Below, piece by piece: positions 549 through 37,683 of a stretch of 64,000 bases of DNA. Location: NCBI GenBank assembly GCA_013112545.1, contig JABFGJ010000014.1:1-64000 (forward strand), written 5' to 3'. Origin of the DNA: Bacteroidota bacterium. GTDB lineage: Bacteria > Bacteroidota > Bacteroidia > Flavobacteriales_E > Vicingaceae. A model generated the notes under the pieces. The model worked only from the letters and a program-made list of their open reading frames with translations. It did not search any database and was not told the DNA's origin. Position numbers and translations under genes: made by a program. The first letter of the stretch is position 1; each line of letters opens with the position of its first letter.

Positions 549-592
549 TAGTCGAGTAGGTAAAGGGGAATCTCACCCCTAAACCTCTCACA

Positions 593-626
593 GAACCGTA
601 CGTGAACCTCTCGATTCATACGGCTC
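593..626 (-). ncRNA. Group II intron domain V (catalytic hairpin)
   Basis: The 34-nt hairpin on the minus strand folds exactly as domain V. The lower stem GAGCCGTA pairs with TACGGTTC, including the catalytic AGC triad near the 5' end. A two-nucleotide CG bulge sits on the 3' side. The upper stem TGAATC pairs with GGTTCA and is capped by a GAGA (GNRA) tetraloop. This architecture is diagnostic and is the strongest evidence for the surrounding intron. Confidence 0.88.
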
Positions 627-1087
627 TTCATAGTCCAAAGTATTTCTACTCCTGACCTAATACCCAAAATCATCGCTAACCTAAGTCAACTTGTAATACA
701 ATAATAGGTCACACTATGTGAAGCCCTTCACTTGTAGGGTCATTACTCCTACTCTCTTGGGTAATATCGCTACTACGGCTTCATCCGCCCCAAAGTCAAG
801 CATCGCTACTCTTTGCCTTTTCCTTACAGGACTTTCGGCATTCTCGCTTAATATCTTGACTTTGGTTCTCCTGTTCCTTTACAGAGCCCGTATATGGTTC
901 TTGCCCTCTTAATACCGCCTGTCACATAGCCAATAAGTAGTTTTTCGCTATGTTTCTAACAATTAATGTTAGCTTGTCTCTCAGGGCCGCTCTACCCCTT
1001 GATTTTGACAGAATAAAAGTTATTTTCGACACGTCTTCGATGGGTTCGCTTGCGCTCAACTCCCATATACTCACCATACACTTAATC

Positions 1088-1112
1088 GCCATCCCGATAG
1101 CTATCGGGTGGC
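1088..1112. repeat. CCCGATAGCTATCGGG palindrome (REP-like)
   Basis: There is a perfect 16-bp palindrome at 1093-1108, extended by GCCA..TGGC arms with a one-base bulge. The core TAGCTATCG recurs at 2672-2680 and in both mosaic units near 36886 and 37249, so it is a dispersed element in this genome. Confidence 0.6.
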
Positions 1113-1498
1113 TTTAAATGTTTTGACCTTAACGCTCAATACCATCGCATGAAACAACAGCACCTTAAGGCGGTTTGAAAAAGTAAACTACACTACTTAT
1201 TCGATAGTCCAATTCTTTGCAATTACTCCTTCTGTGAGACCTCCAAGTTTACCGTTTAATTGGGCTTGGCTCGTTGCCGTTTCTTCACAAAGCCTATCAT
1301 CTCTGTAAAAGTTTTGTTACCATTTCAAAGAACTATTATTATCTTGTACCCTTGGTAACGCAGGACACACAAAAGAGGCTAACACCAGCTAAAAACCATC
1401 ACCGCCCCTTCGGGACAGCAACGTTTTTTTTAGCTGTAGTCGTTAGCGGCAAGGAATAAACACAAGCCCTCTGCGACAAATAGCAACACTTTTCTCCT

Positions 1499-20814: not shown

Positions 20815-20844
20815 AAAAACCCACGCCAAATGGCGTGGGTTTTT
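20815..20844. terminator. Bidirectional rho-independent terminator between uvrA and the giant T9SS gene
   Basis: A 13-bp perfect stem, AAAAACCCACGCC (20815-20827) with GGCGTGGGTTTTT (20832-20844), and a four-base loop. It has A-run/T-run flanks on both sides. It sits in the 100-bp gap between two convergent genes and can serve both. Confidence 0.88.
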
Positions 20845-35746: not shown

Positions 35747-36703
35747 TTAATGAGCTCCTATTTCTGTTAAATAACGTTCAGCATCTAGAGCAGCCATACA
35801 ACCAGTCCCTGCAGCTGTAACAGCCTGACGATAAACCTTGTCTGCGGCATCGCCACTAGCAAAAACGCCTGGAATATTAGTTTTAGAGGTTCCAGGAATT
35901 ACCTTTAAATAACCCACTTCATCCATTTCTAACCAACCTTTAAATATATCAGTATTTGGTTTATGGCCAATGGCTACAAAAAATCCTGTAACATCTAATT
36001 TTATTTCTTCATTGGTTTTGTTGTTGTATGCTAAAACTCCTTCAACAGCATCTTTACCAAGAATTTCTTTTGTTTCATGATTATAAAGCACTTCAATGTT
36101 AGGAGAATTTAATACACGATCGGTCATAATTTTGGACGCTCTAAATTCATCTCTTCTGACCAGCATGTAAACTTTGTTGCAAAGTTTTGATAAATATGTT
36201 GCTTCTTCTGCTGCCGTATCCCCTGCTCCAACTATTGCCACATCTTGACCTTTATAAAAAAAGCCGTCACAAACTGCACAAGCACTAACTCCAAAACCAT
36301 TTAATCGCTCTTCAGATTCTATTCCCAACCATTTTGCAGCTGCGCCTGTAGATATAATAACTGCATCAGCTGTAATTTCTTTTTTGTCATCAACCCACAC
36401 TTTATGAACAGGGCCTGTAAAGTCCACTTTAGTTACTAAACCAAATCTCACATCGGTGCCAAATCGTTCCGCTTGTTTTTGAAAATCCTGCATCATGGCT
36501 GGACCATTAATCCCATCGGGATAGCCTGGGTAATTTTCAACATCGTTGGTAATGGTTAATTGTCCACCTGGCTGTAAACCTTGATACATTACAGGAGACA
36601 TATCAGCTCTAGCAGCATATATGGCTGCTGTATATCCAGCAGGCCCAGAGCCAATGATTAAGCATTTTACATGTTCGATCTCTTGTTTATTTTTTTCTGA
36701 CAT
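35747..36703 (-). CDS. trxB: Thioredoxin-disulfide reductase
   Basis: A 318-aa flavoenzyme that uses NADPH to reduce thioredoxin, the electron source for Bcp and DsbD, which are also encoded in this window. The FAD-binding GSGPAGYTAAIYAARA is at about 18-33, the redox pair CAVC (Cys142, Cys145) sits in SACAVCDGFF, the NADPH site is GAGDTAAEEA, and the C-terminal FAD contact is GVFASGDAADKVYRQ. The length is standard. It is a single gene with a TACCTTTG promoter candidate and a clear terminator. Confidence 0.97.
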   Translation of the reverse strand: MSEKNKQEIEHVKCLIIGSGPAGYTAAIYAARADMSPVMYQGLQPGGQLTITNDVENYPGYPDGINGPAMMQDFQKQAERFGTDVRFGLVTKVDFTGPVHKVWVDDKKEITADAVIISTGAAAKWLGIESEERLNGFGVSACAVCDGFFYKGQDVAIVGAGDTAAEEATYLSKLCNKVYMLVRRDEFRASKIMTDRVLNSPNIEVLYNHETKEILGKDAVEGVLAYNNKTNEEIKLDVTGFFVAIGHKPNTDIFKGWLEMDEVGYLKVIPGTSKTNIPGVFASGDAADKVYRQAVTAAGTGCMAALDAERYLTEIGAH

Positions 36704-36730: not shown

Positions 36731-36858
36731 TTGATAAGCTATCTAAAAAATACCATTTTATATTCAGATTTTTAAGCCTTTTTTCGTTTAAGTATTTTGC
36801 ATTAATTGCTTGAAGGAATATATGTAGATTCACTTAATAAAACCCAAAATAGTTTATT

Positions 36859-36953
36859 CGGGATGTCACGCTGATGCGTTATAAATAGCTATCGATTTTA
36901 GTGCGCGCGTCTGAGGGGCGCAAGAGAGTCACGCCAAAGCGTGATCTTCCCGA
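36859..36953 (+). pseudogene. Mosaic tRNA-Pro-like element, copy 1 (degenerate)
   Basis: This 95-nt stretch starts with the acceptor-stem sequence CGGGATG plus T of the downstream tRNA-Pro and ends with CTTCCCGA, the acceptor 3' strand with one mismatch. The D arm is replaced by a hairpin TCACGC-TGAT-GCGTTA (one mismatch) plus TAAATAGCTATCGA. The anticodon arm is a mutated copy of the tRNA-Pro arm (CTGAGGGG instead of CTGGGGGG and two further changes). The T arm is replaced by TCACGC-CAAA-GCGTGA. It cannot be a working tRNA. It lies 11 bp before the first GIY-YIG gene. Confidence 0.6.
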
Positions 36954-36964
36954 CAATCCATACT

Positions 36965-37201
36965 ATGGAATATTGGACTTACATATTGTATAGTGAAACT
37001 CTAAATAAGTTTTATACCGGGCAAACAAACAACTTAGATGCTAGAATTGAAAGACATAATCTTGCTCTTGTTAAAAGCACAAAAAAAGGAATTCCATGGA
37101 AGCTAATTTACTCTACAAAACAAAGTTCTAGGACAGAAGCAATCAAGCTAGAAACAAAAATTAAAAAAAGAGGTGCAAAACGCTTTTTAGAAGATCTATA
37201 A
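36965..37201 (+). CDS. GIY-YIG nuclease family protein, copy 1
   Basis: A 78-aa single-domain GIY-YIG protein. MEYWTYILYSETLNKFYTG carries the two-strand GIY..YIG-type core (WTYIL, FYTGQT), followed by NLDARIERHN with the catalytic-type Arg and His, and EAIKLETKIKK with the metal-binding Glu. The start is taken at the ATG 36965; the frame extends to a GTG at 36941 inside the preceding hairpin, which is unlikely. This group (UrpA/COG2827-like) is common in multiple copies in Flavobacteriales, and its role is unknown. It is identical to copy 2 except for Lys instead of Asn in STK(K/N)GIPW. Confidence 0.85.
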   Translation: MEYWTYILYSETLNKFYTGQTNNLDARIERHNLALVKSTKKGIPWKLIYSTKQSSRTEAIKLETKIKKRGAKRFLEDL

Positions 37202-37220
37202 ACTTAATTTGCAGCCTATT

Positions 37221-37315
37221 CGGGATGTCACGCTAATGCGTGATAAATAGCTATCGATTTTAGTGTGCGCGTCTGGGGGGCGCGAGAGCGTCACGCCAAA
37301 GCGTGATCTTCCCGA
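37221..37315 (+). pseudogene. Mosaic tRNA-Pro-like element, copy 2 (well preserved)
   Basis: Collinear with the tRNA-Pro at 37584-37658. CGGGATGT is identical (8 nt), and a 26-nt block covering the whole anticodon arm and variable loop (37265-37290) is identical to 37609-37634. The end CTTCCCGA differs from CATCCCGA by one base. The D arm is replaced by a perfect 6-bp hairpin TCACGC-TAAT-GCGTGA followed by TAAATAGCTATCGATTTT. The T arm is replaced by TCACGC-CAAA-GCGTGA. A cloverleaf-like fold can still be drawn: acceptor stem with one mismatch, two identical-stem side hairpins, and the anticodon arm. Loss of the TTCGAAT loop argues against aminoacylation. Confidence 0.65.
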
Positions 37316-37326
37316 CAATCCATACT

Positions 37327-37563
37327 ATGGAATATTGGACTTACATATTGTATAGCGAAACTTTAAATAAGTTTTATACTGGGCAAACAAACAACTTAGA
37401 TGCTAGAATTGAAAGACATAATCTTGCTCTTGTTAAAAGCACAAAAAACGGAATTCCATGGAAGCTAATTTACTCTACAAAACAAAGTTCTAGGACAGAA
37501 GCAATCAAGCTAGAAACAAAAATTAAAAAAAGAGGTGCAAAACGCTTTTTAGAAGATCTATAA
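37327..37563 (+). CDS. GIY-YIG nuclease family protein, copy 2
   Basis: A 78-aa GIY-YIG domain protein, almost identical to the one at 36965-37201; the visible amino-acid change is Asn for Lys in STKNGIPWKL. Core strands WTYIL and FYTGQT, the ARIERH helix and the EAIKLETKIKK helix are intact. Both copies are open, so both may be expressed. The start is the ATG 11 bp after the mosaic tRNA-like element. The stop codon is 20 bp before the intact tRNA-Pro. It could be a domesticated nuclease or the gene of a minimal mobile unit; the sequence cannot decide. Confidence 0.85.
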   Translation: MEYWTYILYSETLNKFYTGQTNNLDARIERHNLALVKSTKNGIPWKLIYSTKQSSRTEAIKLETKIKKRGAKRFLEDL

Positions 37564-37583
37564 ACTTAATTTTGCAGCCTATT

Positions 37584-37658
37584 CGGGATGTAGCTTAGTC
37601 CGGTTAAAGTGCGCGTCTGGGGGGCGCGAGAGCGGTGGTTCGAATCCACTCATCCCGA
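37584..37658 (+). tRNA. tRNA-Pro (anticodon GGG)
   Basis: A 75-nt cloverleaf. The acceptor stem CGGGATG pairs perfectly with CATCCCG, and the discriminator base is A. The D stem is GCTT/AAGT with GG in the loop. The anticodon stem CGCGT/GCGCG holds a seven-base loop CTGGGGG with anticodon GGG at positions 34-36. The T arm is GGTGG-TTCGAAT-CCACT. CCA is not encoded. It directly abuts the end of tandem unit 2, and its 5' and anticodon segments are copied in both mosaic elements upstream. Confidence 0.95.
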
Positions 37659-37683
37659 CTTTATTAACCAAAACAACTATTAT

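Follow-up and report, generated by a model that had tools for sequence, protein, structure and literature searches.

Tandem GIY-YIG nuclease units with palindrome-bearing tRNA copies beside tRNA genes of Bacteroidota and other bacteria

The window analyzed here, a 64,000-nt stretch of a Bacteroidota genome (Vicingaceae; contig JABFGJ010000014.1), holds two short units arranged head to tail between a trxB-like gene and an intact tRNA-Pro gene. Each unit comprises a mosaic copy of the tRNA gene, a small GIY-YIG nuclease gene, and a short tail (Table 1). This tandem arrangement had been proposed in a first-pass annotation made from the sequence alone, and it is real: the two periods were confirmed, the tRNA is called by both ARAGORN and Rfam, and both open reading frames match the Pfam GIY-YIG model (PF01541; E value of about 2e-15). 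Both mosaics end in the acceptor strands of the tRNA (CGGGATGT and TTCCCGA) and differ from each other at six positions. The anticodon arm is fully conserved in the second copy, as the annotation had stated. In place of the D arm, the mosaics carry a palindrome of the form TCACGC-NNNN-GCGTGA; the hairpin that had been ascribed to both units is perfect in unit 2 only. The nuclease gene does follow each mosaic closely, with its ATG 10 nt beyond the mosaic rather than the 11 bp first given.

The tail of unit 2 contains a perfect -7 box (TAATTTTG) at 37567-37574, followed by a 9-nt leader and then the intact tRNA. The corresponding box in the tail of unit 1, ahead of unit 2, is damaged (TTAATTTG). 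TAnnTTTG is the known -7 consensus of Bacteroidota, and since the one perfect box lies in the tail of unit 2, the present promoter of tRNA-Pro appears to reside within the element. At gathering scores, Rfam assigns the mosaics to no described RNA family, and no Rfam match indicative of a group I intron occurs at the locus. The units encode no integrase (the GIY-YIG gene is the sole open reading frame), and the repeats that frame them are direct and tRNA derived, with no terminal inverted repeats. Elsewhere, group II intron matches are found on the minus strand of the window (551-1219; Rfam), and CACGC palindromes at 20822 (a terminator) and at C1:1077 are unrelated to tRNA copies.

Table 1. 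Features of the tRNA-Pro locus, with positions given for the whole window
Feature	Position	Strand	Remarks
trxB-like gene	35747..36703	-	trxB/tRNA-Pro neighborhood conserved; empty and filled sites can be compared
Unit 1 (mosaic tRNA-Pro, GIY-YIG gene, tail)	36857..37218	+	Head to tail with unit 2; period 362 bp
Mosaic tRNA-Pro, copy 1	36859..36954	+	Acceptor ends and anticodon arm retained; D and T arms replaced
D-arm palindrome, unit 1	36866..36881	+	Degraded, TCACGC-TGAT-GCGTTA
T-arm palindrome, unit 1	36929..36944	+	TCACGCCAAAGCGTGA; in tRNA context
GIY-YIG nuclease gene 1	36965..37201	+	78 aa
Tail, unit 1	37204..37220	+	Damaged -7 box TTAATTTG plus CAGCCTATT
Unit 2 (mosaic tRNA-Pro, GIY-YIG gene, tail)	37219..37581	+	Period 363 bp
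Mosaic tRNA-Pro, copy 2	37221..37316	+	
D-arm palindrome, unit 2	37228..37243	+	Perfect, TCACGCTAATGCGTGA
Anticodon arm of mosaic 2	37265..37290	+	26/26 nt identical to intact tRNA (37609-37634), E value of 1e-6
T-arm palindrome, unit 2	37291..37306	+	TCACGCCAAAGCGTGA; in tRNA context
GIY-YIG nuclease gene 2	37327..37563	+	78 aa; AlphaFold pLDDT 96.8; nearest UPF0213, SLX1
Tail, unit 2	37567..37583	+	Promoter-like -7 box TAATTTTG and leader of intact tRNA; role suggested by Bacteroidota consensus
Intact tRNA-Pro(GGG), host gene	37584..37659	+	ARAGORN; Rfam tRNA, 60.2 bits

The two nucleases are 99% identical, and their genes are separated by three synonymous substitutions plus a single amino acid replacement. 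Residues Y6, Y17, R27, and E63 are invariant, while G19 and H31 are at least 90% conserved; together with the Pfam domain and the predicted fold, these catalytic residues place the protein in the GIY-YIG superfamily. The structures nearest to the AlphaFold model belong to UPF0213 (YhbQ-like) proteins, followed by SLX1, and the same two groups are closest in sequence. SLX1 works in complex with SLX4, and we know of no link between UPF0213 proteins and tRNA. The window open reading frame consists entirely of the catalytic domain, with no separate DNA-binding domain. Between the two window copies, dN/dS is 0.08; between genera, dS is saturated and dN ranges from 0.18 to 0.36. As judged from such substitution rates, the nuclease genes are under purifying selection.

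A search for further copies, suggested in the first-pass annotation, showed that the arrangement of GIY-YIG gene and tRNA gene recurs. In the same genome, a protein search retrieved additional GIY-YIG genes, four of which adjoin tRNA genes (one tRNA-Arg, one tRNA-Asn, and two tRNA-Met), and three of these four are accompanied by broken, palindrome-bearing tRNA copies. Family members were present in 44 of 60 related genomes. Collection scans used a four-sequence profile, a profile of 18 diverse proteins being too variable. Loci from the related genomes, together with 63 named loci that a species-genome scan supplied, gave a nonredundant set of 176 GIY-YIG genes. More than half of these (99/176) lie within 300 bp of a tRNA that ARAGORN calls intact, and all 99 are encoded on the strand of that tRNA. 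Among the remainder, five are near tmRNA genes (L072, L086, L090, L094, and L097), some are beside tRNA ends that ARAGORN misses, and others are at contig ends. The family spans Bacteroidota, Ignavibacteria, Cloacimonadota, Neomarinimicrobiota, Balneolales, and Patescibacteria. A viral scan returned no relatives of the nuclease and phage records gave one weak match, so neither source points to a transfer vehicle. In one Patescibacteria genome (L158), a GIY-YIG relative has as its neighbor a 16S rRNA gene with a group I intron in it.

Palindromes embedded in tRNA copies are likewise not unique to the window. We searched the surroundings of tRNAs at GIY-YIG loci for perfect palindromes with arms of at least 6, accepting those in which both flanks were collinear with the local tRNA and the combined match reached at least 20 nt. 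By this measure, 97 of the 516 palindromes examined lie inside a copy of the local tRNA, distributed over 57 of 126 loci that cover several isotypes and phyla. When the tRNA was exchanged for one of another isotype, 24 of 2,580 comparisons scored; with the reversed tRNA, 0 of 516 did. These controls, along with recurrence at dozens of loci, exclude chance and bear out the earlier statement that the mosaic is not a random fragment. The same annotation regarded a gene conversion event involving tRNA-Pro and a REP palindrome as the most conservative option. Such a one-off event, combined with passive duplication, could account for the window locus alone; it is refuted because the arrangement recurs at many isotypes, in several phyla and with isotype-specific nuclease lineages, and we assign it a negligible probability.

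Among 84 nonredundant cases, the anticodon arm is the part most often replaced (50 cases), followed by the T arm (18) and the D arm (14). The palindromes measure 14 to 30 bp; 45 of the 84 begin with TCCCG and others with CCACG/TCACG or TCCGC, the commonest being TCCCG..CGGGA and YCACGC..GCGTGR. A clean example is a copy of tRNA-Pro(CGG) at L057 in which the D arm alone is replaced. A wobble-pair comparison covered a small number of cases: among stems that carry a single mismatch, no clear preference for G-T over A-C was seen. CAGG or CAAACT, neither of which is tRNA sequence, frequently comes directly after a D-arm palindrome (L109, L110, L111, L217, L208, L054, and L020); these motifs may be part of the inserted piece.

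An RNA transcribed from the mosaic might instead mimic a tRNA and act as a decoy that binds the nuclease or a synthetase, another option raised in the first-pass annotation. The window mosaic is collinear with the tRNA and its RNA is predicted to be strongly folded (z of about -4), as a decoy might be. However, base pairing of one palindrome with the other gives a predicted fold that is a rod, not a cloverleaf, and many mosaics elsewhere keep only the 5' or only the 3' half of the tRNA, with the replaced arm varying. We therefore consider a decoy function improbable.

Mosaics also occur without a nuclease gene. In the window genome, 4 of the 23 tRNA loci that lack a GIY-YIG gene carry them, and a palindrome process may thus be separable from the nuclease. 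Following tRNA-Ala(GGC) in this genome are nine 38-bp tandem repeats (L220; G000 C1:525847-526260), each a 3' piece of the tRNA in which CCACGCCCAAAGCGTGG takes the place of the T arm, with no nuclease gene. At L208, L217, and L216 (G000 contigs C6, C2, and C17), arm-swapped copies free of GIY-YIG genes precede tRNA-Pro(TGG), where four stand in tandem with D and anticodon arms affected, tRNA-Gly(GCC), and tRNA-Leu(TAA), and they also surround the tRNA-Ala(TGC) gene that lies in the spacer of the rRNA operon. Mosaics of this kind may be nonautonomous or relict, or may signal a separate palindrome process.

These nuclease-free copies lend weight to an explanation in which the palindromes constitute a REP-like or miniature element in their own right, one that enters tRNA arms through a Y1 (RAYT) transposase or some other factor, while the GIY-YIG genes hitchhike on the resulting repeats. 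One palindrome class occurs at differing isotypes within the window genome, the CAGG tail is common to D-arm insertions at several loci, and the genome has one Y1 transposase. REP/RAYT systems also resemble the present units in tying short palindromes to a single small nuclease gene. The units, in contrast, contain no Y1 transposase: the single Y1_Tnp gene of the genome is on another contig (C2:31429), unlinked to the palindromes. Nor are the palindromes widely dispersed between genes, as REPs are; their numbers per genome are low and they are concentrated in tRNA copies. Genome-wide, there are 18 of the CACGC type and 13 of the TCCCG type, many of them at tRNA loci. The strict co-orientation of tRNA-side GIY-YIG genes and the correspondence of palindrome class with isotype across genera (see below) also argue against independence. 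On balance, we regard this explanation as unlikely, although it deserves serious consideration.

Two layouts of the units can be distinguished. In the upstream layout, which is that of the window, the order is promoter region, mosaic, GIY-YIG gene, and intact tRNA; it is shared by the closest relatives (Aureibaculum flavum, A. luteum, and a Flavobacteriaceae MAG) and recurs with tRNA-Ser in Patescibacteria. In the downstream layout, the intact tRNA and its terminator come first and are followed by repeats of GIY-YIG gene, palindrome-bearing 3' tRNA part, and terminator. Common to both is a nuclease gene flanked by direct repeats derived from the tRNA gene, an arrangement by which tandem gain or loss would be possible by itself. 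Tandem arrays were observed with 10 copies of 457 bp, 8 copies of about 377 bp, and 5 copies of 379 bp. The longest (L050; G009 C9:904500-912000) consists of near-identical units after tRNA-Met, each with two different 3' remnants of tRNA-Met. Within the same genus, a search of G019 gave no GIY-YIG match of that kind. At L052 (G019 C20), one tRNA-Pro(TGG) unit has its GIY-YIG gene broken by a transposase-like insertion.

The syntenic trxB/tRNA-Pro(GGG) site offers a direct comparison. It is empty, with a short promoter region only, in G009, G019, G025, and G036; it is filled by two units in the window genome (G000) and by other arrangements in G002, G005, and G026. Gains or losses therefore occur within a family. 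The G014 mosaic at this site stems from an exact duplication that took in the promoter and the 5' end of the tRNA; no nuclease gene accompanies it.

The nuclease lineages are associated with tRNA isotype. On the nuclease tree, isotype changes 31 times, compared to 65.3 ± 2.1 when labels are shuffled (minimum of 57 in 2,000 shuffles), and palindrome class likewise follows isotype across genera (89 pairs versus 56.5 ± 6.0). Both patterns may owe something to vertical inheritance of orthologous tRNA loci. Isotype dedication, purifying selection, and co-orientation with the tRNA would also fit a system that benefits its host, for example, in defense or the sensing of tRNA stress; here the nuclease would be coexpressed with its tRNA and respond to an attack on the tRNA gene or transcript. 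Yet close relatives often have pseudogenized units or none, the arrays, with as many as 10 copies, resemble selfish amplification, and layouts differ from locus to locus. A host function of this kind seems to us distinctly unlikely.

The explanation we favor, to which we assign a probability of roughly one-half, is that the window locus belongs to a widespread group of selfish recombination units tethered to tRNA and tmRNA genes and working in the manner of SegB-type intronless homing. It builds on observed features: the anatomy and recurrence of the units, co-orientation, isotype lineages, purifying selection, empty and filled sites, and tandem arrays. The comparative data agree with the first option listed in the annotation, a minimal nuclease element recombining with a tRNA-like target. 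Each unit carries a one-domain GIY-YIG nuclease and sits between direct repeats made of the promoter and tRNA 5' part (upstream type) or of the 3' part and terminator (downstream type). In the spare copy, perfect palindromes replace one or more arms, so that tRNA function is improbable for it, and one intact tRNA is kept. In the proposed mechanism, the nuclease would break DNA within the tRNA repeats or close to them, perhaps at palindromes extruded as hairpins or cruciforms. Such structures are good candidate substrates, given that palindromicity is kept while sequence varies and that the fold is SLX1-like. Repair between the tRNA-derived repeats would then copy, multiply, or convert the unit, as with SegB, and homology of the tRNA flanks may confer isotype specificity. 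Placed between tRNA and promoter or beside the terminator, and in the same orientation, a unit would be hard to lose and could ride on transcription of the tRNA. More tentatively, the SLX1-like nuclease may act on hairpins in decoy copies of the tRNA gene, with flank homology rather than protein recognition steering breaks, repair, and spread to that isotype; we hold this specific version to be possible but on the unlikely side.

Among known systems, the units probably behave most like intronless homing. SegB is a GIY-YIG nuclease that cuts a phage tRNA region and causes a 718-bp tRNA-Tyr/segB unit to be amplified in tandem; the authors of that study ascribe the amplification to recombination of the tRNA 5' region with the segB 3' region (PMC13096335). 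As with SegB and other free-standing GIY-YIG homing enzymes of T-even phages, the gene is found among tRNA genes and forms tandem units of tRNA and nuclease. Presence/absence polymorphism beside a conserved target, seen at the trxB/tRNA-Pro site and between G009 and G019, is another trait of free-standing homing endonucleases. A review of T4 further notes that promoters embedded within free-standing endonuclease genes favor their retention (PMC2988022). The present units differ from SegB in encoding only a catalytic domain of 78 to 92 aa, in residing on bacterial chromosomes, and in their tRNA-derived direct repeats with palindrome arms, and for them homing is a proposed activity. That the window protein lacks the DNA-binding part typical of GIY-YIG homing enzymes counts against a SegB-like mode of action.

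Repeats derived from tRNA genes are also known from E. coli tyrT, where tandem repeats containing the tRNA 3' end follow the gene; to our knowledge, these involve neither a GIY-YIG gene nor an arm-swapping palindrome. Genomic islands at tRNA and tmRNA genes, to the extent that the Islander description covers them (PMC4383910), share with the units an intact tRNA or tmRNA gene and a displaced fragment that marks the far end. Compared with islands as described there, the units have no integrase, are only about 0.3 to 0.5 kb long, carry a palindrome-swapped displaced copy, and come in upstream and downstream layouts. Since a defining feature is missing in each comparison, we place the units outside tDNA islands, REP/RAYT systems, insertion sequences, and typical GIY-YIG homing enzymes.

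We found no description of such units in the open-access literature, and the kind of selfish element is apparently undescribed; subscription journals and preprints lay outside the scope of this survey, and priority is not assured. Genes for tRNA are among the most conserved and indispensable sequences of a cell. If the favored explanation is true, selfish DNA has a new way to exploit essential genes, namely, by copying tRNAs, swapping their arms, and multiplying beside them. It would also account for many of the small GIY-YIG genes and unusual tRNA fragments that lie close to tRNAs in bacteria, and the units would provide a tractable system for the origin of tandem arrays.

Some relatives of the nuclease show a different organization. 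For tRNA-linked units, the inverted repeats of which are mostly terminators, we rejected a model in which a terminal inverted repeat encloses the GIY-YIG gene as its loop, but the model holds for some other relatives. Those at L045, L066, L034, L160, and L170 are framed by terminal inverted repeats resembling CCCCGTTAGAAA and possibly represent a distinct transposon-like element with GIY-YIG as its only gene; integrase and transposase genes appear to be interrupted by L045 and L066.
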